Positions 5,718-29,551 of a stretch of DNA of 49,186 bases are shown in pieces. Position 1 is the stretch's first letter; each line of letters begins with the position of its first letter. The notes under the pieces were generated by a model that ran no database searches, was not told the DNA's origin, and was given only the letters and a program-made list of their open reading frames with translations. A program made the translations under genes and the position numbers. This stretch comes from Candidatus Zixiibacteriota bacterium. GTDB taxonomy: Bacteria; JAAXHH01. Location: contig VGJU01000005.1 of NCBI GenBank assembly GCA_016867335.1, positions 1 through 49,186 on the forward strand, in the 5' to 3' direction.

Positions 5718-6410
5718 GTGATGTATATCCTTGAAGGACTGACGGAGGCGTTGCGTCTGCTTTCGATCGGTGACAACGGTGTATACGGAATAGCGGGCGT
5801 TTCTCTTTTCGTGGCAGGCATTTCTACGCTTTTGGCCGGTCTTGTGGGTCTTCCCGTCGGATATTTCGTGGCTATGCGGGCTTTTCGCGGACGACGGGCC
5901 GTCACGCTGATCCTGAACACCCTGCTGGCGCTTCCCACGGTGGTCATAGGCTTGGTGGTCTATGCGCTTCTGTCGCGGCGCGGTCCGCTCGGTTTTATAG
6001 ACCTGCTGTATACACCCTCGGCGATGATAGTAGGCGAAACCCTGCTGGCGGTTCCCATCGTGGCTGTCTTTGCCCTGTCGGCGTTGCGTGCGGTAGACCC
6101 AAGAGCCGCCGACACCGCCGCAACGCTCGGCGCCACGCCAGCTCAGACGGCGTGGGTCGTTCTCACCGAAGCCCGGTTTGGTCTGTTGTCCGCCGTTGTC
6201 GCCAGCTTTGGCCGGGTCGTAGCGGAAGTGGGCATCGCCATGATGCTGGGTGGTAACATAAAAGACAGCACCCGCACAATGACGACCGCGATCGCCCTGG
6301 AAACCGGAAAAGGCGAATTTGGAACCGCCCTTGCTCTCGGCATCGTCCTGCTGATCGCGGCATTTGCAGCCAATATCGTGTTTCACTGGCTTCAAGGGTT
6401 TTCGGAATGA
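5718..6410 (+). CDS. tupB: tungstate-type ABC transporter permease (TupB-like)
   Basis: 230-residue inner-membrane permease with five to six hydrophobic segments. It has the binding-protein-dependent transport signature in the cytoplasmic loop (AADTAATLGATPAQTAWVVLTEA, about 133-155), which docks on the ATPase. The phrase LLALPTVVIGLVVYALLSRRGPLG is characteristic of TupB/WtpB-type tungstate permeases as I know them. GTG 5718 has AGGGGG nine bases upstream; ATG 5721 is in the same frame. The stop overlaps the ATPase start (ATGA). No substrate-binding-protein gene adjoins it. Confidence 0.82.
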   Translation: MMYILEGLTEALRLLSIGDNGVYGIAGVSLFVAGISTLLAGLVGLPVGYFVAMRAFRGRRAVTLILNTLLALPTVVIGLVVYALLSRRGPLGFIDLLYTPSAMIVGETLLAVPIVAVFALSALRAVDPRAADTAATLGATPAQTAWVVLTEARFGLLSAVVASFGRVVAEVGIAMMLGGNIKDSTRTMTTAIALETGKGEFGTALALGIVLLIAAFAANIVFHWLQGFSE

Positions 6411-7423
6411 CTACCCCGGAACCCCTGCTGGATATTCGAGACTTGGTGCAACAACGCGCCGACGGATTCCGGCTGACCATCGCGTCGTTTTCGCTTCTTC
6501 CCGGACGATCGTATGCTATCACCGGGCCCAATGGGTCGGGCAAGACGACGTTGCTGCGTACGTTCGGCCTGGTCGATCCGCCGATCGAGGGACGGATGCG
6601 GTTCGAGGGGCGCGATCTGTCGCTGGGCGATGCAAACGCCTTAACGGACTTTCGCCGACAGACGACGCTCGTAATGCAACACGCCTTTTTGTTCCGGGGC
6701 AGTGTCTTTGACAACGTAGCCTATGGCCTGCGTTTTCGGCGCGTGCCATCGGGAACGTTCCGATCGCGTGTAGCGCAGGCGCTGAAACAGGTAGGATTGG
6801 TCGGTTTCGAGGGGCGCAACGCCCGCCGGTTGTCAGGCGGCGAGTCACAGCGGGTGGCGCTGGCACGCGCGCTGGCGGTAGAACCCCGTCTTCTGCTTCT
6901 CGACGAGCCTACCGCCGGTGTAGACACCGAAAACGCGGACGTGATCGAAACGGCGATCCTGCGCATGCGCGAAGAACGCCGGATGGGGGTTGTGTTTTCT
7001 ACCCATCAGTGGGATCAGGCGTACCGACTTGCGGATGAAGTAAGCGCCCTGCGCGACGGACGTATGCTCGATGCGGGGCCGGTCAACTTGTTTTCCGGCG
7101 AGGCGCGTGACGACGGAACAACGGTTGTTTTGCACCCCGGCGTTGTCTTGCAGACCGTGACGGACCGGCGCGGGCCGGTCCATGTGCATATCGACGCGGA
7201 AGACATCATAGTTTCCCGACAGCCGCTTGCGTCGAGCGCGCGGAACTCGCTTATCGGCACGATCGTCCGTGCCGCCGTGACGGACCCGTTTATCGATCTT
7301 ACAGTAGATGTCGGTGTTTTGCTTTCGGTGCGCATCACACGTCAGTCGTTTGCCGAACTCGGTCTCAACATGGGCGACCGCGTGGCGGCTACGTTCAAAT
7401 CCTCGGCGGTGCGGATACTTTGA
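6407..7423 (+). CDS. tupC: tungstate/molybdate-type ABC transporter ATP-binding protein
   Basis: 338 residues. The ABC ATPase domain has Walker A GPNGSGKTT (40-48), signature LSGGESQR (about 142), Walker B LLLLDEPTAG and the switch histidine in FSTHQW. A C-terminal extension ends in a TOBE/Mop-like module (SARNSLIGTIVRAAVTDPFI to FKSSAVRIL, about 275-338), of the kind that binds molybdate or tungstate oxyanions. With the permease it would import the oxyanion for molybdenum/tungsten cofactor enzymes. The four-base overlap with the permease shows translational coupling. The binding protein must be encoded elsewhere. Confidence 0.85.
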   Translation: MTTPEPLLDIRDLVQQRADGFRLTIASFSLLPGRSYAITGPNGSGKTTLLRTFGLVDPPIEGRMRFEGRDLSLGDANALTDFRRQTTLVMQHAFLFRGSVFDNVAYGLRFRRVPSGTFRSRVAQALKQVGLVGFEGRNARRLSGGESQRVALARALAVEPRLLLLDEPTAGVDTENADVIETAILRMREERRMGVVFSTHQWDQAYRLADEVSALRDGRMLDAGPVNLFSGEARDDGTTVVLHPGVVLQTVTDRRGPVHVHIDAEDIIVSRQPLASSARNSLIGTIVRAAVTDPFIDLTVDVGVLLSVRITRQSFAELGLNMGDRVAATFKSSAVRIL

Positions 7424-7454
7424 GCATTTACATTTCCGAAAAAGAGAGGATACG

Positions 7455-9026
7455 ATGAGCGAGTCTATTTCCCGTTGTGAATTTATCGCTGCCGGGGGTG
7501 CCGCGTTGCTCGGATATACGGTACTGCCGGATACGGTGATGGCCATCCCGCCGCAGGCTATGGCTGGGACGCTTGCAAAGGCCTCCCTTCCGGCAGCGCT
7601 GTGTATCTATTCGCACGAAGGGGCGACAACTGCCGGAAAGGCGCTTTTAGCAGGGGCTTCGGCGCTTGATGCGGTGGAGCAGGGCATTCGCGCGGTGGAA
7701 GACGTGCCGTTGCCGGGTGGCTACAACGTCGGTCTGAGCGCTGTGGTCAACGAGCACGGCAATGCCCAGCTTGACGCCACGATCATGGACGGACGCACCC
7801 ACCGAAGCGGGTCGGTCGGCGCGCTCGAAGGCATCGCCCACCCCATCTCGGTGGCACGCAAAGTGCTCGAAGAGACCCCTCACTCGTTAATCGTCGGCAA
7901 GGGCGCGCAGGATTTTGCCGTGCGGATGGGATTTAAGGTTGAGGAAATAGTTTCTGACATCAGCAAACAGCAGTACGACGACTAGGTCAAGGTGGAAGAA
8001 CTGCGCAAGCGTCAGGCGGACCGGATCGCCACCGAACCCGCAGCGGCCAAAAAAGCGCTGGAAACTTTTATCCCCCAACCCGGTGACGGGCTGAACGGTC
8101 TCCAACGTGGATTTGTTCTGTTTGAAGGACTGCGTAATGCGTTTGGCGTGGACTATGCTCAACCAATGGTCAGCATCATGAAACCGGAAGAAGTCGAACG
8201 CATTCGCGGCGCGTTCCCCACGCAGCGGGTCGGATTTGCGGGGCAGGCCCGGATACTGTGGGAATACGAACAGACGCTCGACAAGAGCAGGTCCGGCGCG
8301 GCGCCGGGACAGAGCGTGCCGGATGCACACGAAACGTCCGGGCTGATCGCGCTGACCGCAACGGGCGACATGGCCGTGGCGGTATCCACCGGCGGACTGT
8401 TTGGCAAGATGAACGGACGTCTGGGTGACTCGCCCATCGTCGGCGAGGGCGGGTATGTGGACAATGCGGTGGGATCGGCCTGCGCGGTGGGGGTCGGCGA
8501 GCAGATGATACAGACCGTCGGCAGCCACATGGTGGTGGAAAACATGCGTCTTGGCATGTCCCCTATGGAGGCGAGTCAGGATGCGCTGGGGCGTATGATC
8601 GGCAAGGGACACAGCAAATATGTGGCCCTTGCCGCCATGCGCAAGGACGGCGCGTATGCGTCGGCTCATCTGGGGCGCCCGGAAGGTTCGACCGTCATTC
8701 AGATTTTCAGCGGTGGGGCCGTCCAAGCAATCCGTAGGGAGGGTATACGCGAAATCGCGTCGGAAACGACCGTCGAGGTGGCGTTGCTCAAATCCGCTCG
8801 GTTCGAGGTAGTCGTCACCGATATGACTGGAAATCCGGTGCGTACGCTTTCCGAACGCCGCGTCGCCGGGTATCACCTCGTGCAGTGGGACGGCAAAAAC
8901 GAGGGCTGGACGCGTATGCCGCCGGCCGCGTATTTCTGCACGGTACGGATCGGCGATCATACGGATCCGCGTCAGCGTATGTTGCTGCGGCTCTCGGCGG
9001 ATGACATCCGTCGCGCGTTGTTGTAG
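7455..9026 (+). pseudogene. N4-(beta-N-acetylglucosaminyl)-L-asparaginase, interrupted by TAG
   Basis: Glycosylasparaginase of the Ntn-hydrolase superfamily, which cleaves GlcNAc from asparagine. The frame runs from ATG 7455 to 9026 with one in-frame TAG at 7983-7985 (codon 177). The first half carries the family core (SALDAVEQGIRAVED, ATIMDGRTHRSGSVGALEGI). The second half carries the autoprocessing site HETSG with the nucleophile threonine (Thr294 in read-through numbering) and GDSPIVGEGGYVDNAVGSACAVGVGE. The N-terminus looks like a Tat signal but has SRCEF instead of SRREF. The last 75 residues resemble a FlgD-type Ig domain (VVVTDMTGNPVRTL to AAYFCTVRIG), unusual for this family. Without read-through the catalytic threonine is not made. 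A sequencing error is possible. Confidence 0.75.
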
Positions 9027-10010: not shown

Positions 10011-10052
10011 AAGGATGAATGATAAAGGGTGAATTATGAAGGATGAAAAAAG
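10011..10052. repeat. heptanucleotide repeat array at the M28-FtsX start
   Basis: Six successive 7-base units (AAGGATG, AATGATA, AAGGGTG, AATTATG, AAGGATG, AAAAAAG) cover the spacer and the first codons of the next gene. The ATG at 10036 lies inside unit four. Because seven is not a multiple of three, the array can supply start codons in any frame. The same style of array occurs at 14551, 19553, 21781, 21823 and 22085. Confidence 0.6.
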
Positions 10053-13000
10053 ACGGATAAGGTGGACCGTGTTGTCGGGGTTTCTTTTTCTCCTGTTATC
10101 TGCCGGATGCCAAACACAAGGGGCGCGTACGGCGCATGTGCGGCTGGAGCAGACGACCGATGTTCGCACGGTAGCCGCTTCTGTCGATTCCACTCGAATA
10201 CGCAGGACCATCGTCGATTTGGCAGGGTTTGGCACGCGCATGACCGGCTATCCCGGGGCGACGCAGGCCGCGCACTATCTGGTCGACCGGTTGCGCGACA
10301 TCGGCGTGGAGGAAGTGGAACTCGAAGAGTTTATCGCATCCGTTCCGCTTGACGAAGGTGGAGAACTCACCTTGCCGGACGCTGCCTTCGCCGATAGCAC
10401 GGGAGCGCTTCTGCGTAACCTGCCCCTGTATGCGGTATGGCCTAACCTTGTGCGCACCTCGACGCTTCCGGCGGAAGGGCTGGATGCCAAGTTGTATTAT
10501 GTAGGCGCAGGCGACTGGGCGGACTTTAACGGTATCGATCCCCAAAACGCCATCGTGCTCATGGATTTCAATTCGGGGGTCAACTGGCAAAACGCGGCCC
10601 AGTTGGGCGCGCGTGCCGCGATCTTTGCCGAACCCGACCGGATGACGCGTGTAGACGGGGAAGAGAAGTATCTTCAGGTTCCGATCAATTTCCCGCGTTT
10701 CTTTATGAAAAAAGAGCATGCCCGTCCGTTGATCGACCTGATCCGGCAACAGGGACCACAGCACGTCCGGGCCAAGGCGCGGATGACATGGAAACGCCTG
10801 CCTGCCTATAACGTTCTAGGCAAAATCACCGGCACGCATCCCATCCTCAAAGACGAAGCCATCGTCCTCGAATCGTATTACGACTCGATGTCGCCCGTAC
10901 CGGCGGTGTCTCCCGGCGCCAATCAGGCGTCGGGCACGGCGGCACTCGTCGAGATGGCGCACTACTTCAAAACCCATCCGCCGGCACGCACCGTCTACTT
11001 TCTGGCTACCTCCGGACACTTTCTTTCGCTGAGCGGTGTCAACGATTTTGCGCACCGTCACACCCGCAAAAACGAATACTTCGCTCGACAGGTAAAAGAA
11101 CCGATCAACATGAAGTTGTTTATCGGGTTGGACCTGTCCAGTGCCCGCGACCAGATCGGAGTCTACTATGCGGGCATCCTGTTTGCCGGAAACTCGTTTG
11201 AAAAACAGCGGTTTTTTACTCCGTTCGGTAAAACCTTTATGGCGCACGCCGGCGAGATCACCAGCGCGCTGGGACTGCCAAACGATATCCTGATGAACGT
11301 CATCACCCCGACCCAGGGGATACAGTCGTCCGAGTTCTTCCCCGCAGGCAATATCGGTCTCGACGGCGAACTGATTTTCTGGTCAGGGTTTCCGGCGCTT
11401 TCTTTTGCTACCATCTTTGATGCCCGTGTGTATGTGGATACACCCATCGACACCCCAGACCGTGTCCACTATGGCCACCTGTACACCCAGACGGCCTTTA
11501 TGACGGTGCTGTTGGCCAAGGCGATCAACAACCCGGACCTGTTTCCCGACTTCAAGATGCAACTGGAAGATCGGTTTGTCCGGGGACGTATCCGCGTGGT
11601 GGAGTTCGACCCCAAAAAGAGCTATATCCCCAGCACACCCAAACCCGGTGCAGTGGTGCGATTTCGGCGCTATAACAAAAGCATAAGCGGTGTCAAGAAC
11701 GAGATTTTTGTCATGGCCGACAGCAACGGCGTAGCTGAATGTACCGAACTGGAGGCCGGGCGCGTGTATCCCACCGAGGGGTATGTCCTTGACCCGGAAA
11801 CGGGCAATATCATCTACGCCCCGGACCGGGGACCCTGCGGAAAAGGCGCGTATCCGCTCGAAATCCGTATGGACTGGTTGGACAAGGAAAAACCCACGGT
11901 CGTGTTTCGGTGCGAGGCGACCAATATCTACGATCTGGTTGATCCCCGTTTTCTCAAAAGGCTCAATGAGGCCGTTCTGCTCAATGAGTCGGGAACCCAG
12001 CCCATCGAATTCGGTTTGACGTTTCAGGAAGGCGGGTGGACGACCGGTAACACCTACGAAGAGGATACGGCGGCGTTGTTTGTGCGCCCCGGCACGCGGT
12101 TCAAATTGACCATGTCGAGTGGGCTTATCGGTCGGCGTCTCGTGCTGACCAACGCCAGCGCCGAAAACCCCGAAGGCATAGGGTTTCCAGCCGGTCAGCT
12201 TTCGATCCCGTACACCTCTTATCAAGTGGCGCAGGATATGTGGCATTTAGACGACGCGCGTATCCGGGCGCTCAAAAGCGCCGGAGTCGGTAGCGACCGA
12301 CTGGAGTTGTTTCATCAAACCGCCCGCCAACTGCTCAACCGTGCGGAAACGGCACGCCAGTCGCTCGAATGGGACAGCTTTATCAAGCACGCCCGCGCCG
12401 CATGGGGCTACGAATCCCGCGCGTATCCGGACGCCACCGATACGGCCAACGACGTCGTGTCCGGCGTGTTGTTCTACATGGCGCTTGTCATCCCCTTTGC
12501 CTATGCGCTGGAGCGGCTCCTGTTCGGTTTTGCCAACATATACCGCCGCATCGCCACCACTTTCGGTATCTTTCTCGCCTCCTATTTTATCCTGCGTGTA
12601 AGTCATCCGGCGTTTCAGATCAGCGCCACGCCGGACATCGTGCTGTTGGCGTTTATCACGCTGACCCTTGCCTTGATCGTCATCTGGCTGATTTCGGCAC
12701 GGTTTACCCGTACCATGCAACACATCCGACATGCTGGGGCGCGTATACACAACACCGACGTCCAACGTTCGAGCGCGCTCGGAACCGCGTTTGCTCTCGG
12801 CATCGGCAACATGCGCAAACGCAAAGCGCGTACCATGCTAACCTGTCTCACGCTCATCCTGCTCGTCTTTACCGTGCTGTCGTTTACTTCGGTGCAGACC
12901 TATCTACGTATCCAGAAAGTAAGCCGCGATGCCGAGGCCCGATACACGGGGTTTCTGGTCCGCAATTTGGGGTGGGAGCCGCTCCAGAAACAGACCCATC

Positions 13001-14571
13001 AATATCTTATGTCCGAATTCGGCTCGCGAGAAGAGGAAGACAAAGATATCGTCATCGCGCCCCGGTCGTGGTATTCGAGCGCCGCACCGGGGATCAAGAC
13101 CTTTATCAAAGTGGAACGCGATGTCGCCTCCGCCCCCGCCGCGCCGGAGACCAGCTACCGCACCGCCTATGCCTCAGCCATGTTAGGATTGACCCCCCAA
13201 GAAACATCGGTCTCCGGTTTAGATGGCACGCTTTTGGCCGGACGTTGGTTTCGGCCCGGCGAACGCGCGGTGTGTATCCTTCCCGCCGACTTGGCGGAAC
13301 TGCTTTCGATCCGCCGCGAAGACGTAGAGGCAACCGATGTACATATCTTCGGACAACCGCACCGGGTGATCGGGTTGTTCGATCCAGCCACGTTCGAGAA
13401 CTTGCGCGACCTCGACGGCGAACCGCTTACGCCGGTGGATTTTACGGCAACCGGACAGGATTTGCTGACGCAACTGGCTCAAAAGAACTACGACGAAGAA
13501 CCGCTCGACATGGCCGAATTCAAACACCAGTTAGCCGCCAACACGATCCTTGCGCCACAGCCGGTCGTGGACGATCTGGGCGGCACGCTCCGGTCGGTGG
13601 CGGTCCGATTTGCCTCCGAGACATCGGCCCGAACCCGTATCGACCGGTTTCTACCACGTCTTGGCATTCCCGTGATTGCCAGTGTGGACGGTAAAGTCGC
13701 CGTATATAGCTCGATCGCGCTAAGTTCGCTGTCAGGGCTTGGCAACATGTTTATCCCCTTGCTGGTGGCGGCGCTTATCATCCTCAACACCATGATGAAC
13801 GCCGTCTACGAACGGTTCCGCGAAATCGGTGTATACAGCGCCGTGGGGCTGGCTCCCGTACATATCGGCGCGCTGTTTATGGCCGAGGCGTGCGTCTACG
13901 CGGTGGTCGGCGGCATGGCGGGCTATCTGATCGGTCAGACCGTAGCGAGTGGCATCACCGAATACCAACTGCTGGCAGGGCTTACACTCAACTACTCGTC
14001 GCTCTCCGCCGTAGCATCCACCGCGCTCGTGATGTCGGTCGTTCTGCTCTCCACGGTGTACCCGGCGCGCAAAGCCGCGCAGATGGCCGTGCCCGACGTC
14101 AACCGCCAGTGGAGTTTTCCGGAGCCGCAGGGCAATCTGTGGAGCTTCGAATTTCCCTTTACCATAAGCCGTGCCGAAACACCCGGGTTGTGCACTTATC
14201 TGGTCCGGCTGTTCGAATCGTACGAGGAAAGTGCGCTCGGTTCGTTTATGGCCTCCGGTGTGCGTATGACCAGAAAGACCGAGAACGGCGCCGAAACGTA
14301 TACGGTCGCCATGAACATCTGGCTGGCCCCATACGACATGGGCGTAAGCCAACGCGTCTCCTTGCGGGCCGCTCCGGCGCAAGGCGAACACGACCTCTAT
14401 GCCGTATGGGTGGATATCCACCGCGAAAGCGGCGACGTGGATTCGTGGCAAAGGCTCAACCGGCGTTTTCTAAACGCCCTCCGCAAACAGTTTCTGATCT
14501 GGCGTACTATCGACCACGAAACCAAAATGGAATATGCATCCGAGGGACGGAGAATGAAGTGTGAAGTGTGA
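10036..14571 (+). CDS. degenerate M28 peptidase domain fused to FtsX/MacB-type permease
   Basis: 1511-residue lipoprotein-anchored membrane protein. The N-terminus has a lipoprotein signal with lipobox LSAGC (lipidated Cys25). Residues about 40-490 are an M28 aminopeptidase-like domain. At the usual zinc and catalytic positions it has Tyr281 (in SYYDS, normally H), Asn296-Gln297 (GANQASG, normally a D) and Gly327-His328 (normally EE). Only the later aspartate (Asp366, GLDLSS) looks kept. Residues about 490-800 are an extracytoplasmic linker. Three helices follow (about 808-893), then an FtsX unit: a helix at 929-951, a periplasmic domain, and helices at about 1234-1342 with ERFREIGVYSAVGLAP. 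The last 170 residues are unassigned. No ABC ATPase gene adjoins it. The peptidase part is probably non-catalytic. Confidence 0.8.
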   Translation: MKDEKRRIRWTVLSGFLFLLLSAGCQTQGARTAHVRLEQTTDVRTVAASVDSTRIRRTIVDLAGFGTRMTGYPGATQAAHYLVDRLRDIGVEEVELEEFIASVPLDEGGELTLPDAAFADSTGALLRNLPLYAVWPNLVRTSTLPAEGLDAKLYYVGAGDWADFNGIDPQNAIVLMDFNSGVNWQNAAQLGARAAIFAEPDRMTRVDGEEKYLQVPINFPRFFMKKEHARPLIDLIRQQGPQHVRAKARMTWKRLPAYNVLGKITGTHPILKDEAIVLESYYDSMSPVPAVSPGANQASGTAALVEMAHYFKTHPPARTVYFLATSGHFLSLSGVNDFAHRHTRKNEYFARQVKEPINMKLFIGLDLSSARDQIGVYYAGILFAGNSFEKQRFFTPFGKTFMAHAGEITSALGLPNDILMNVITPTQGIQSSEFFPAGNIGLDGELIFWSGFPALSFATIFDARVYVDTPIDTPDRVHYGHLYTQTAFMTVLLAKAINNPDLFPDFKMQLEDRFVRGRIRVVEFDPKKSYIPSTPKPGAVVRFRRYNKSISGVKNEIFVMADSNGVAECTELEAGRVYPTEGYVLDPETGNIIYAPDRGPCGKGAYPLEIRMDWLDKEKPTVVFRCEATNIYDLVDPRFLKRLNEAVLLNESGTQPIEFGLTFQEGGWTTGNTYEEDTAALFVRPGTRFKLTMSSGLIGRRLVLTNASAENPEGIGFPAGQLSIPYTSYQVAQDMWHLDDARIRALKSAGVGSDRLELFHQTARQLLNRAETARQSLEWDSFIKHARAAWGYESRAYPDATDTANDVVSGVLFYMALVIPFAYALERLLFGFANIYRRIATTFGIFLASYFILRVSHPAFQISATPDIVLLAFITLTLALIVIWLISARFTRTMQHIRHAGARIHNTDVQRSSALGTAFALGIGNMRKRKARTMLTCLTLILLVFTVLSFTSVQTYLRIQKVSRDAEARYTGFLVRNLGWEPLQKQTHQYLMSEFGSREEEDKDIVIAPRSWYSSAAPGIKTFIKVERDVASAPAAPETSYRTAYASAMLGLTPQETSVSGLDGTLLAGRWFRPGERAVCILPADLAELLSIRREDVEATDVHIFGQPHRVIGLFDPATFENLRDLDGEPLTPVDFTATGQDLLTQLAQKNYDEEPLDMAEFKHQLAANTILAPQPVVDDLGGTLRSVAVRFASETSARTRIDRFLPRLGIPVIASVDGKVAVYSSIALSSLSGLGNMFIPLLVAALIILNTMMNAVYERFREIGVYSAVGLAPVHIGALFMAEACVYAVVGGMAGYLIGQTVASGITEYQLLAGLTLNYSSLSAVASTALVMSVVLLSTVYPARKAAQMAVPDVNRQWSFPEPQGNLWSFEFPFTISRAETPGLCTYLVRLFESYEESALGSFMASGVRMTRKTENGAETYTVAMNIWLAPYDMGVSQRVSLRAAPAQGEHDLYAVWVDIHRESGDVDSWQRLNRRFLNALRKQFLIWRTIDHETKMEYASEGRRMKCEV
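14551..14571. repeat. heptanucleotide repeat array at the M28-FtsX stop
   Basis: Three 7-base units, AGAATGA then AGTGTGA twice, make up the last codons of the M28-FtsX gene (MKCEV) and supply its TGA stop. This is a different unit from the array at the same gene's start. Confidence 0.5.
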
Positions 14572-16335: not shown

Positions 16336-16438
16336 AACCTGAAAACGCTTGGCGCCAATCATTCCGCGCCGACATCCTGGCACTGGAGAAGGAAACCGAA
16401 GGGCTGCTGGGCAAGATTATCTGAGACGGAGGATGTTG

Positions 16439-17089
16439 ATGACGGACCATGAGTTTGAGCGATATCATCGACGCTCCATTCGTCTCAAGGTGTACGATTA
16501 CAGACGATGCGGCGCATATTTTATTACCGTGTGCGTTCAGAATCGCTTCTGTCTGTTCGGAGAAATCGTCGATGGGGTCATGAAAATAAATGAAGCGGGG
16601 CAGATAGCGCAAAACGTATGGAACGATTTGCCGCGTCATTATCCACACATGGTCTTGGATGCGTGGGTAATTATGCCGAATCATGTTCATGGCATCATAT
16701 TTTTATCCGATGTCCGGGATGACGGTGAACCCATGCCCCCACGGGTTGAATCCGTAGGGGCGGGTTTCAAACCCGCCCCTACAGGGATGCCCGATGTCCG
16801 GGATGACGGTGAACCCATGCCCCCACGGGTTGAATCCGTAGGGGCGGGTTTCAAACCCGCCCACACACATGGTTTGCCGGAAATCGTCCGGGCATTCAAA
16901 ACATTTTCGGCGCGTCGTATCAACCCATGGCGTCATACACCCGGTACGCCCGTATGGCAACGCAATTATTACGAACATATCATCCGCAATGAAGAATCCC
17001 TACATCGCATCCGACAGTACATTGCCGACAATCCCGCCCGGTGGACGGAGGACCGCAACCATCCGGACGCCATCGGAAGACGCGTGTGA
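16439..17089 (+). CDS. REP-associated tyrosine transposase (RAYT, Y1_Tnp family)
   Basis: 216 residues of the IS200/IS605-related TnpA_REP family of single-strand HUH transposases. It starts with RSIRLKVYDYRRCGAYFITVCVQNR, has the metal-binding HUH motif in MPNHVHGI, and the catalytic-tyrosine region WQRNYYEHIIRNEE near the end. In this family the enzyme acts on REP palindromes. The middle of the protein (about residues 91-142) is a 28-residue unit present about twice, encoded by REP-like palindromic DNA at 16707-16862 and reading VGAGFKPAPT. The frame stays open. ATG 16439 has GGAGG six bases upstream. It lies between glnS and a PfkB kinase, with no terminal inverted repeats seen. Confidence 0.88.
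   Translation: MTDHEFERYHRRSIRLKVYDYRRCGAYFITVCVQNRFCLFGEIVDGVMKINEAGQIAQNVWNDLPRHYPHMVLDAWVIMPNHVHGIIFLSDVRDDGEPMPPRVESVGAGFKPAPTGMPDVRDDGEPMPPRVESVGAGFKPAHTHGLPEIVRAFKTFSARRINPWRHTPGTPVWQRNYYEHIIRNEESLHRIRQYIADNPARWTEDRNHPDAIGRRV
16707..16862. repeat. tandem 84-bp repeat inside the RAYT gene
   Basis: Copy one spans 16707-16790. Copy two starts at 16791 and matches until about 16862, where it breaks inside the palindrome. The 84-base period is 28 codons, so the duplication keeps frame. Each copy carries the REP-like palindrome. Confidence 0.85.
16754..16782. repeat. REP-like palindrome
   Basis: A perfect 29-base inverted repeat: arms GTAGGGGCGGGTTT and AAACCCGCCCCTAC around a single C. A second copy at 16838-16862 is identical up to the last four bases, where it diverges. 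On both strands the sequence would form a strong G/C-rich hairpin, as in RAYT-associated REP elements. Confidence 0.85.
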
Positions 17090-25814: not shown

Positions 25815-25978
25815 TTGTTTGCTAGCTACCCGTCTTTGCCTGTAGCCGTAGGATTTTCAATCTGGACTCGCCATCGGGCGACGTCAAGAATTTTCCCTTG
25901 CGGCAGAACGTTTTCGCCGATAAACTGTACGCAAGAAGTGGTGCCGACCTCGGACATTCGAAACAGGAGAACGCGGCT

Positions 25979-27721
25979 ATTTCATCCCTCCGGCGACTAA
26001 TACCGTATATCCTCCGTTATCGGGGCGCGATGTCGCTCGGATTCGCGTCCCTGCTCCTTACAAACCTCATCATGCTTATCGCTCCGCAAATTCTCCAGCG
26101 GGCGATCGACACCTTGCGTGTTTCCTCCGACCCCGGCTCCCTGCCGATCCATGCGATGCTTTTTGTGCTTGTCATGGTCGTTCAGGGCGTATTCCGCTAT
26201 ATGGTACGCCAGACCATCGGCGTGGTTTCGCGCCGAATCGAATACGACCTGAGAAACGATCTGTACCGATGTTTGCAGTCGCTTCCTCTCGCCTATTACC
26301 ACAAAAACCGCACCGGCGACATCATGTCGCGGCTGACCAACGATCTGGGATCGGTCCGCAACCTGCTCGGTCCCGGTATCATGTATTCCGCCAATGCGCT
26401 GATTCTGTTTGTCGCGGCGCTGGCGGTGATGCTCTCGATGAATGTCGCGCTTACGCTCATGGCGCTGATTCCGATGATCGTTCTACCGCTGTTTAGCAAT
26501 CGGATGAGCAAGCGGCTCTACGACCGTTCGCGCGCGGTGCAGGAGCAGATCGCCGTGCTGAGCGGCATGGCGCAGGAGACTGTTGCCGGTGTCCGTGTGA
26601 TCAAAGCCTATCAGCGCGAAGAAGCCGCGTTCGACCGGTTTTGCGCGGCAAGCCGGGAATATGTCGAGAAATGCATGGGACTGGTCCGGGTGGAGGGGGC
26701 GATATGGCCGCTCATGGGCGCCATAGCGGGGTTGAGCAGCGTGATCGTGGTCTGGTACGGCGGACTTAGGGTAATCGACAACGAACTTACGCTTGGAGAA
26801 CTGGTGGCGTTCGAGGCATATCTCGGCTATCTCATGTGGCCGCTTATGGCGTTTGGATGGGTGATCAACGTAGCACAACGCGGAAAGGCCTCCATGACGC
26901 GGCTGACGGAACTTTTGGATGCGCCCGGCCAAGACGGTCGGACGGAGCCGGAGGACCGTGAAACCGTCTTTCGGGGACACATCGAATTTCGCAACCTTAC
27001 TTTTTCCTACAACGACGGCGTTCCGGTGCTGGAAAACATTTCTTTTACACTCGAACCCGGCAAGACACTGGCCGTCGTCGGCCCCACCGGATCGGGCAAA
27101 AGCACGCTTGTCAACCTCATCTCCCGGCTTTACGACCCCTTGCCCAAAACCGTTTTTCTCGACGGTCACGACGTGCTCTCGCTCCCGCTTCGGCGGCTTC
27201 GGGAGGCGGTCGGCGCGGTTCCGCAGGATACGTTTTTGTTTTCACGGACCATAGCCGGAAACATCGCCTACGGGGTGCCGGAGGCAACGGCGGACGAAAT
27301 CCGTAAGGCGGCGGAAACGGCCCGGATCGACCACGATATCGCCGGATTTCCGAATAGATACGAAACCAAGATCGGCGAGCGCGGCGTCACCCTGTCCGGT
27401 GGCCAGAAACAGCGTACCGCCATCGCGCGGGCCGTTCTTTCCGACCCTGTCGTGTTGATCCTCGACGACTGTCTTTCGAATGTGGACACTTACACCGAAG
27501 AAGAAATCCTCCAGCGGATGCGTGTCTTTATGAAAGACAGAACCACGCTTATCGTGGCCCACCGGATTTCTTCGATCAAACACGCGGACCGGGTTCTGGT
27601 CCTCGAACACGGACGAATCGTGGAACAGGGCGATCATGGGACGCTTTTGGCCAACGGCGGGCTGTACGCGCGTATGTACGAAAAACAAAGACTTCAGGTA
27701 TCCCTCGCGGAAACGACATAA
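25979..27721 (+). CDS. ABC exporter half-transporter, subunit with degenerate Walker B
   Basis: 580-residue type IV ABC exporter half: six membrane helices in about 1-310, then an ATPase domain. Walker A is GPTGSGKST (368-376), the signature is canonical LSGGQKQR (472-479), and Walker B is VLILDD. Asp497 therefore replaces the catalytic glutamate, the mark of the non-hydrolytic site in heterodimeric exporters. The likely start is ATT 25979, giving ISSLRRLIPYILRYRGAM with AGGAG nine bases upstream; no ATG, GTG or TTG fits better, and TTG 25898 gives an unlikely leader. It pairs with the next gene 42 bases on. Drug, lipid or peptide export is possible. Confidence 0.85.
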   Translation: MSSLRRLIPYILRYRGAMSLGFASLLLTNLIMLIAPQILQRAIDTLRVSSDPGSLPIHAMLFVLVMVVQGVFRYMVRQTIGVVSRRIEYDLRNDLYRCLQSLPLAYYHKNRTGDIMSRLTNDLGSVRNLLGPGIMYSANALILFVAALAVMLSMNVALTLMALIPMIVLPLFSNRMSKRLYDRSRAVQEQIAVLSGMAQETVAGVRVIKAYQREEAAFDRFCAASREYVEKCMGLVRVEGAIWPLMGAIAGLSSVIVVWYGGLRVIDNELTLGELVAFEAYLGYLMWPLMAFGWVINVAQRGKASMTRLTELLDAPGQDGRTEPEDRETVFRGHIEFRNLTFSYNDGVPVLENISFTLEPGKTLAVVGPTGSGKSTLVNLISRLYDPLPKTVFLDGHDVLSLPLRRLREAVGAVPQDTFLFSRTIAGNIAYGVPEATADEIRKAAETARIDHDIAGFPNRYETKIGERGVTLSGGQKQRTAIARAVLSDPVVLILDDCLSNVDTYTEEEILQRMRVFMKDRTTLIVAHRISSIKHADRVLVLEHGRIVEQGDHGTLLANGGLYARMYEKQRLQVSLAETT

Positions 27722-27763
27722 GATGTTTTTTGTTTGGGATGTCACCTTTCAAATCTTCCTACT

Positions 27764-29551
27764 ATGAGCAACGAACGCGACGAAGAGGTTCAGGGCAAAG
27801 CCTACGATCGGGTGATCATGCGTCGGTTGCTGACCTATTTGCGTCCGTATCGCGCGCATATCGGCATATCGGTGATTTTGCTGTTGGTGGTAGCCGGTCT
27901 GCGACTGGCCGGTCCCTATCTCACTAAAATCGCCATCGACAACTTTATCGTGACCGGCGACGTGGAGGGACTGCATAAGGTCGGGATCGCTTATACGGGC
28001 GTCCTGGTGTCGATTTTTATCTGTCGTTATATCCAGATATACCTGACGAATCTGGCCGGACAGCGGGTCATGTACGACATCCGGGTAGCGGTATACAGGC
28101 ATCTGCAAAAGCTGTCGGTAGCCTATTACGACCGCAACCCCGTCGGGCGGTTGATCACTCGTGTCACCAACGACATCGAAGCACTCAACGAGATGTTTTC
28201 GTCGGGTGTCGTCAACATATTCGGCGACATATTTTCGTTGATCGGCATCATGGCCGTGATGATCACACTCGACTGGAAACTTGCGCTGGTCAGTTTTGCC
28301 GTACTTCCACTTCTGACCTACAGCGCGGGTCATTTTCGTTCGAAGGTGCGCTCCGCCTACCGAGAAGTCCGCGCCATCGTATCGCGTTTGAACGCGCATC
28401 TTCAGGAGAGCATCACCGGGATGCACGTCACGCAACTGTTTAACCGTCAGGAGCGCAACTTCGGGGAATTCGAGGATATCAACCGTGAGCATCAGGACGC
28501 CTATATCCGCACCATTCGGTATTACGCGATATTTTTTCCAGCGGTGGAAGTCATCGGCGCGCTGGCTGTAGGTTCGATCATCTGGTACGGGGGTGGACAA
28601 GTCGTTCAGGGCGCTATCTCGCTCGGTGTGCTTGTGGCGTTTCTCCAATATGCACAGCAGTTTTTTCAACCCATCAGCAACCTGAGCGAACAGTACAATA
28701 CCATGCAGGCGGCAATGGCCGCCTCGGAGCGACTGTTTGTCGTACTCGACGAAAAACCGTCGGTTTCCGATTCGGAGCATCCGGTCGTACTCGGACGACC
28801 TTCGGGGCGTATCGAGTTTCGAGGAGTTTGGTTTTCCTACAACGAACCGGAGTGGGTGCTGAAAGACGTAAATTTTACCGTCGAACCGGGACAGCGTGTG
28901 GCTTTTGTCGGCGCGACGGGCGCCGGGAAGTCCACCATCATCAACCTGATCTGCCGTTTTTACGACCCCCAGCGCGGGCAAGTGCTTATCGACGGCGTCG
29001 ATATTCGGACCCTAAGCCAGCAAGAACTGAGAAAATATATCGGGCTTGTGCTTCAGGATGTTTTTCTTTTTTCCGGCACGATAGAGGACAACATCCGGCT
29101 TTGGAACGACACCGTCACGTTCGAAGACGCACGCGAGGCCGCGGTTCGAATCAACGCGCATCCCTTTGTCTCACGTCTTCCCGAAGGATACGCGGCTTCG
29201 CTCGGAGAACGCGGTTCGAACCTTTCCACCGGCCAGCGGCAACTGATCTCGTTTGCCAGGGCGCTTGCCTACGATCCCGCCATTCTGGTACTGGACGAGG
29301 CTACTTCCAGCATCGACACGGAAACCGAGCGGCTTATTCAGGATGCGCTTCGCACCCTTATGGCAAACCGAACCTCGCTTATCGTGGCGCACCGGCTTTC
29401 CACCATACAGGACGCCGACCAGATCATCGTGCTTCACCGGGGACAGATACACGAGTCCGGCGCGCACCGAAAACTGCTTGACACAGGAGGTCTCTATACC
29501 CGGTTGTATCAGCTTCAGTACCGGGAACAGGAATCCGTGTCGGGCGAATGA
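27764..29551 (+). CDS. ABC exporter half-transporter, catalytic subunit
   Basis: 595-residue partner of the preceding gene. Six membrane helices (about 20-320) are followed by an ATPase domain with Walker A GATGAGKST, altered signature LSTGQRQ (487-493, Thr for Gly) and intact Walker B LVLDEATSS with Glu512. The altered signature faces the degenerate Walker A/B site of the other subunit. The intact Walker B pairs with that subunit's LSGGQ, so one ATPase site per heterodimer is active, as in BmrCD or TM287/288. ATG 27764 starts MSNERDEEVQ; the Shine-Dalgarno is weak. Confidence 0.88.
   Translation: MSNERDEEVQGKAYDRVIMRRLLTYLRPYRAHIGISVILLLVVAGLRLAGPYLTKIAIDNFIVTGDVEGLHKVGIAYTGVLVSIFICRYIQIYLTNLAGQRVMYDIRVAVYRHLQKLSVAYYDRNPVGRLITRVTNDIEALNEMFSSGVVNIFGDIFSLIGIMAVMITLDWKLALVSFAVLPLLTYSAGHFRSKVRSAYREVRAIVSRLNAHLQESITGMHVTQLFNRQERNFGEFEDINREHQDAYIRTIRYYAIFFPAVEVIGALAVGSIIWYGGGQVVQGAISLGVLVAFLQYAQQFFQPISNLSEQYNTMQAAMAASERLFVVLDEKPSVSDSEHPVVLGRPSGRIEFRGVWFSYNEPEWVLKDVNFTVEPGQRVAFVGATGAGKSTIINLICRFYDPQRGQVLIDGVDIRTLSQQELRKYIGLVLQDVFLFSGTIEDNIRLWNDTVTFEDAREAAVRINAHPFVSRLPEGYAASLGERGSNLSTGQRQLISFARALAYDPAILVLDEATSSIDTETERLIQDALRTLMANRTSLIVAHRLSTIQDADQIIVLHRGQIHESGAHRKLLDTGGLYTRLYQLQYREQESVSGE

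Follow-up and report, generated by a model that had tools for sequence, protein, structure and literature searches.

A catalytically dead M28 head fused to an FtsX-type permease, the probable large subunit of a type VII ABC system

We propose that P0001, a 1511-residue protein encoded in a 49,186-nucleotide stretch of Candidatus Zixiibacteriota DNA (hereafter the window), belongs, as its large subunit, to a heteromeric type VII ABC system not described before, in which a catalytically dead M28 head would serve as receptor; we put the probability of this reading at roughly 0.6. Because relatives of P0001, which are spread over many phyla of uncultured bacteria, are almost always accompanied by one dedicated motor, we regard it as part of an undescribed energy-driven envelope machine and not as an orphan oddity. 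The predicted composition of the complex alone, the fusion together with a small FtsX-type permease (mini-FtsX) and an ATPase, is very likely, judging from gene distribution and linkage. A role in receiving and handing over a ligand is, overall, probable.

Domain organization of the fusion protein

The reading frame of P0001 runs on the forward strand from an ATG at 10036, uninterrupted over 1511 codons, to the stop at 14571. The open frame, Pfam matches (PA, M28 and FtsX), hydropathy and AlphaFold2 all agree with the earlier note on this DNA, which had described a single 1511-residue chain joining an M28-like part to a seven-helix MacB/FtsX-type permease, and homologues of the same length occur in many phyla. 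Since dozens of independent genomes encode this length, the fusion is not an assembly artefact; a sequencing or assembly chimera was also excluded by the domain order, which is the same in dozens of unrelated assemblies. All features given below lie on the forward strand.

The signal sequence (10036–10110) ends in a possible lipobox, LSAGC25. The lipoprotein signal proposed earlier thus holds as a possibility for P0001 and its own, closest subfamily, to which the lipobox Cys is confined, but the signal or anchor helix of most relatives is of the ordinary kind, so that lipoprotein anchoring is not a trait of the family. A PA-like domain follows (residues 157–230, 10504–10725); its match to PF02225 (E 0.0023) lies below the cut-off, and it is also indicated by fold matches. 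The Foldseek matches of the ectodomain include YwaD, GCPII and TfR1, all of which carry a PA domain. The M28-fold domain (residues 259–479, 10810–11472) matches PF04389 at 1.9e-10. AlphaFold2 modelled the ectodomain with a pLDDT of 91.9 and a pTM of 0.91, and the best fold matches of this model are the M28 aminopeptidases 2ek8 (E 5e-26) and 6hc6; 3iib was also matched, GCPII and TfR1 stood lower down, and the profile matches include nicalin and TfR1. A beta-rich connector and helical stalk (residues about 513–795, 11572–12420) are seen in the AlphaFold2 secondary structure and have no family match.

Hydropathy and AlphaFold2 place seven TM helices at about 801–831, 835–856, 866–901, 930–953, 1232–1270, 1274–1309 and 1322–1350, arranged as three plus one, then a periplasmic domain of 270 residues, then three. 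The first three (residues about 801–901, 12436–12738) precede the FtsX core, and TM4 (residues 930–953, 12823–12894) is the first helix of that core, an assignment on which the detection of MacB_PCD in the homologue at locus L141 also bears. The MacB-like periplasmic domain (residues about 957–1228, 12904–13719) has a MacB profile match and Foldseek matches to MacB, LolC/E and the MacB periplasmic domain (5lj8/5c59). TM5–7 and the coupling loop (ERFREIG...GLAP) occupy residues about 1232–1350 (13729–14085), and the Pfam FtsX match covers residues 1239–1350 (5.5e-14). The permease as a whole gave profile matches to MacB, YtrF, LolF and LolC and fold matches to MacB/LolC/LolE, the TM regions of its model being of low confidence. 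E460, R461, E464, G472, L473 and P475 of the coupling motif (A5 numbering) are invariant in 61 sequences, and the whole motif is invariant or nearly so. An FtsX core with a periplasmic domain between its helix 1 and helices 2–4 is the arrangement of a type VII permease. P0001 scored below the cut-off of the NCBIfam model lolCE and is not a LolC/LolE equivalog. The chain ends in a cytoplasmic alpha/beta domain of ∼ 160 residues (1351–1511, 14086–14568) that is strongly conserved in every relative; AlphaFold2 gave it confident strands and a long helix, and Foldseek found only weak, PsbP/START-like matches.

Loss of the M28 active site

P0001 was aligned with YwaD of B. subtilis, Aeromonas aminopeptidase (AAP), M28 enzymes from the PDB and the other M28 proteins of its own genome; we take active-site positions to follow AAP numbering. 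At the ligand position His97, P0001 has Tyr281 (10876–10878), the replacement named in the earlier note, and 77 of 78 family members have Tyr (65) or Phe (12) there, the last having His. Asn296–Gln297 (10921–10926), likewise recognized before as standing for Asp, fall in the loop of the bridging Asp117, from which one residue is missing compared with active M28 enzymes. The pair that replaces Glu151 (general base) and Glu152 (ligand) had been given as Gly–His 327–328, which is off by one: ungapped alignment to YwaD and AAP identifies His328–Phe329 (11017–11022). Position 328 is His in all 78 sequences, and position 329 is Phe in 46, His in 27 and Tyr in 5. The earlier list overlooked the loss of a fifth ligand, His256, where P0001 has Asp468 (11437–11439) and Asp stands in 77/77 readable sequences; the motif DTPxD takes the place of HTPxD. 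Asp366 (11131–11133), at the ligand position Asp179, is kept (74 Asp and 4 Glu among the 78) and is the only one of the five metal ligands that survives in P0001.

The number of homologues that keep their zinc ligands had been named beforehand as a test that could refute the pseudopeptidase reading. None of the 78 members keeps the canonical set (His97, Asp117, Glu152, Asp179 and His256); of the two patterns with which the family was searched, one falls in the M28 active-site region and the other in TM4. The sequences from the genome itself and from relatives that were collected by a whole-protein search agree with this; 4 of these 38 keep His97. Because no aligned member retains the canonical ligands, we consider the head a pseudoenzyme, and its assignment as a catalytically dead pseudopeptidase is well supported by the alignments. 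The earlier reading of the protein as a pseudopeptidase on a type VII, or mechanotransmission, ABC permease is borne out by the family-wide ligand loss, the fold matches and the coupling-helix motif.

Size and spread of the family

A profile built from 17 members matched 509 stretches in GTDB genomes. The best 80 of these 509 come from MAGs labelled Latescibacterota, Gemmatimonadetes, Omnitrophota, Armatimonadetes/Chthonomonas, TA06, KSB1, Desantisbacteria, Ratteibacteria, Elusimicrobia, Planctomycetota and others; the Gemmatimonadetes-labelled MAGs among these 80 are close to the window's relatives. Nearly all complete fusions have 1440–1680 aa and the same domain order. One relative (L091) reaches 2426 aa through an insertion within the M28 region, ∼ 740 residues long and placed after the His328 motif; versions of 2400–2550 aa were noted at L091:7076–14353 (forward strand) and also in G239 and G371. 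Most genomes outside the window's clade have a single fusion, and the Latescibacterota examined have several. The window's own genome encodes about seven, five complete and two apparently split by contig ends (C307/C161 and C57/C106).

A probable dedicated motor

Mini-FtsX is a small permease, ∼ 215 aa long, that lacks a periplasmic domain. Eight loci belonging to several groups (L091, L099, L104, L141, L151, L153, L159 and L165) show the gene order fusion, OPT-like protein, c15, PqqD-like protein, mini-FtsX and ATPase, with some genes missing from individual loci; c15 and PqqD are missing from many cassettes. A MAG of Chthonomonas calidirosea carries the linked set (L165), so that a testable model is plausible. 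In the window's genome the cassette c15–PqqD–mini-FtsX–ATPase lies on contig C34 and does not contain a fusion gene. Its mini-FtsX is 58% identical to that of L141 and its ATPase 81% identical to that of L104, and the motor pair is present as a single copy, compared with about seven fusions.

Among 384 genomes, an orthologue of mini-FtsX (E ≤ 1e-28) was found in 28 of the 29 that bear a fusion and in 0 of the 355 that do not (Fisher exact p 1e-41, the genomes not being independent). Counted by genus, which corrects for kinship only partly, the figures are 15/16 and 0/306 (p 7e-25). The sole exception among the 29, G014, is an 83% complete genome, and in each of the 28 mini-FtsX is single-copy. 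Forty further fusion genomes from other phyla, a few of which overlap with the 384, contained mini-FtsX in 37 cases and a contig-end fragment of it in one more. The ATPase gene directly follows mini-FtsX in most genomes checked. This ATPase has intact Walker A and signature motifs and is 67–82% identical across phyla, compared with 37–51% identity to the other LolD-type ATPases of its own genome; the L141 protein scored below the cut-off of the NCBIfam LolD model and is not a LolD equivalog. Co-occurrence and gene linkage mark it as the predicted cognate LolD/MacB-type ATPase of the fusion.

The earlier note had reported no ATPase partner nearby and had suggested that the genome be searched for an orphan one, and this search yielded the LolD-type ATPase with its mini-FtsX on C34. 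Its statement stands for the window in that the ABC ATPases there (6407–7423, and two ABC exporters at 25898–29551) are of other types, none of them type VII, but a dedicated pair does exist elsewhere in the genome.

In five genomes (L283–L287) Opp/Dpp-type ATPase genes immediately precede the motor pair, and Opp/Dpp permeases were identified in one of these genomes. L283, L284 and L287 have two further ORFs of about 270 aa after the motor pair, which in L284 are P5C-reductase-like and nucleoside-phosphorylase-like genes.

Recurrent neighbours and the locus of P0001

Recurrent partners were found by clustering the genes around fusion relatives. Cluster c0 consists of polytopic membrane proteins of 660–810 aa with weak OPT matches, encoded at 47 loci and usually directly downstream of the fusion; 3 of 15 members matched Pfam OPT at E 0.1 or better (best 1.5e-5), and the score of one member was 19.7 against a cut-off of 25.8. 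Cluster c1, at 37 loci, comprises DUF6785+DUF6784 proteins. hhalign aligned c0 with DUF6785 over the full length (probability 65%, pairwise E 6e-5), and the two may be distant full-length homologues. In Omnitrophota-like genomes a TPR protein gene lies upstream of the fusion. Searches of Pfam and NCBIfam with c15 (about 300 aa) gave no match. Genome G000 encodes about 14 or more DUF6785 proteins (C161, C172, C215, C57, C192, C133, C71 and others); only some of them adjoin a fusion, and 14 control genomes have none.

P0001 itself is surrounded by ModBC-like importer genes, an asparaginase gene with an in-frame stop, PhyH and GlnRS; the ModBC, PhyH and GlnRS neighbours are uninformative about its function. 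No c0, c1 or motor gene is present in this neighbourhood. The partners of P0001 would have to work in trans, and the motor would likewise have to do so for the paralogues of P0001. The ModC/WtpC-like ATPase gene upstream of P0001 orthologues encodes 338–396 aa in some genomes and 580–695 aa in others; the ATPase at L080:4723–6726 has an N-terminal extension of ∼ 300 residues with no Pfam match. The asparaginase_2 (isoaspartyl peptidase) gene at 7308–9026 on the forward strand encodes a Tat-signal-like sequence and a C-terminal FlgD-Ig-like domain; a single in-frame TAG interrupts it at 7983–7985, with the same frame on both sides; an error of sequencing, decay or readthrough could account for it. 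A forward-strand gene at 16349–17089, lying between those for GlnRS and an HldE-like kinase, resembles REP-associated tyrosine transposases (Y1_Tnp, 4.5e-5).

Proposed mechanism and alternatives

In the complex that we envisage, the pseudo-M28/FtsX fusion would pair with the dedicated mini-FtsX above a dimer of the dedicated LolD-type ATPase. Outside the cytoplasm, the dead M28 head with its PA-like domain would act as receptor, its ligand resembling a peptide or a lipopeptide. Mechanotransmission, driven by the binding and hydrolysis of ATP below the membrane, would set the MacB-like domain and the head in motion, by which the ligand would be loaded, released or passed on, probably to the OPT-like or DUF6785 membrane proteins whose genes adjoin those of many relatives. 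The modelled architecture, a head with a peptidase fold, a helical stalk and a MacB-like domain, fits a ligand-binding receptor moved by a motor. That the ligand is peptide-like is a guess, made because of the M28 fold, the OPT-like neighbour, the PqqD-family neighbour and the occurrence of the motor downstream of Opp/Dpp-type ATPase genes, four leads that are weak and independent of one another. Because several fusions stand against one motor, we tentatively consider an ECF-like modular type VII machine, in which a single mini-FtsX/ATPase motor might be shared in turn by several interchangeable receptor-permeases. Each receptor, about seven to one motor here, would then feed its own OPT-like or DUF6785 partner.

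It is also conceivable, if rather unlikely, that nothing is transported and that the dead head is a regulatory platform which, moved by ATP, turns a separate hydrolase or synthase of the envelope on and off, as in FtsEX. It is common for type VII ABC systems to activate partners in the periplasm instead of moving substrates (PMC12646458), FtsX–EnvC is a precedent (PMC7668044), and the loss of catalysis in the head agrees with such a role. However, no hydrolase gene recurs beside the fusion among the neighbour clusters, and the genes that do recur encode the OPT-like and DUF6785 polytopic proteins.

The pocket of the head is not degenerate and has invariant polar residues of its own, so that it could bind a ligand or hold a rearranged metal site. 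Asp283, His328 and Asp468 are invariant at the old site and Asp366 is nearly so, from which we conclude that the pocket is under selection; Asp472 is also invariant in the 78-member alignment. A head that hydrolyses a special substrate at a site rebuilt from His328, Asp366, Asp468, Asp283 and often Glu296 is nevertheless improbable. The PDB entry 2anp, presumably a functional E151H mutant of AAP, does have His at the Glu151 position in the alignment, but the changes at three of the five ligands (His97, Glu152 and His256) and in the bridging-Asp loop make an M28-type dinuclear centre impossible. The predicted models themselves carry no metal.

We think it very improbable that the fusion is self-sufficient or uses a generic LolD/MacB ATPase, with the mini-FtsX pair merely sharing its phylogenetic distribution. 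The genome does encode several other LolD-type ATPases, and fusion and motor are unlinked in it, but the linkage recurs in unrelated phyla and, together with the near-perfect co-absence, would not readily be explained by shared ancestry alone. Finally, the ModC/WtpC-like ATPase 2.6 kb upstream (6407–7423, forward strand), the nearest ABC ATPase and one conserved upstream of P0001 orthologues, was rejected as the driver of the fusion and is strongly disfavoured, since it has a TOBE domain and its own adjacent BPD_transp_1 permease (5718–6410), shares only 28% identity with the dedicated ATPase and, outside the clade of P0001, did not turn up next to fusions.

Comparison with known systems

The individual parts of the proposed machine, a type VII ABC permease, a LolD-type ATPase and the M28 fold, are already known. 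In type VII ABC systems the ATPase cycle moves periplasmic parts and no substrate passes through the membrane (PMC12646458). With MacAB–TolC, LolCDE and FtsEX–EnvC the fusion shares the four-TM FtsX/MacB core, the periplasmic domain after the first core helix, the coupling motif and the LolD-type ATPase. It departs from them by three additional TM helices, by the pseudo-M28 ectodomain of 780 residues that precedes the permease, by its cytoplasmic C-terminal domain and by having as partner a mini-FtsX that lacks a periplasmic domain. YbbAP–TesA of E. coli, another type VII ABC system (PMC12646458), is also organized around a periplasmic part with an enzyme fold and also has more than four TM helices; there, however, the lipid hydrolase TesA is active and a chain of its own, and YbbP spans the membrane with 10 helices, whereas in P0001, with seven, the enzyme-like part is fused and dead.

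The head resembles YwaD/BSAP of B. subtilis and the Aneurinibacillus aminopeptidase (PDB 6hc6, 2ek8) in its M28 fold, with Foldseek values down to 5e-26, but those are active zinc enzymes and P0001 is without the ligands and the catalytic Glu. In being dead and tethered to the membrane it resembles nicalin, nicastrin and the transferrin receptor, whose M28-fold ectodomains are inactive. For nicalin the membrane partner is the 7-TM protein TMEM147, a pair that has been modelled on nicastrin–APH1 (PMC7505659). These proteins differ from the fusion in being eukaryotic, separate chains with neither an FtsX permease nor an ABC ATPase.

ECF transporters combine a shared energising module with exchangeable substrate subunits, and a genome with a single motor pair for several large receptor subunits would be analogous, although the proteins are unrelated and the ABC type is different. 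In the literature searched, from which subscription journals were mostly absent, we found nothing relevant on the fusion, on DUF6785/DUF6784 or on PqqD+FtsX, and no described counterpart to the combination of fusion, dedicated mini-FtsX and family-wide dead head. Should the copy numbers be taken at face value, several receptor subunits would depend on a single type VII motor, and we know of such sharing only in other ABC types. The DUF6785/DUF6784 membrane proteins, so far unexplained, abundant here and absent from the control genomes, would gain a lead to their function. The fusion would add to the type VII ABC systems a widespread one whose protease head is catalytically dead and part of the permease chain; the dead M28 domains that eukaryotes place on membrane machines (nicalin, nicastrin) would have a match in bacteria.
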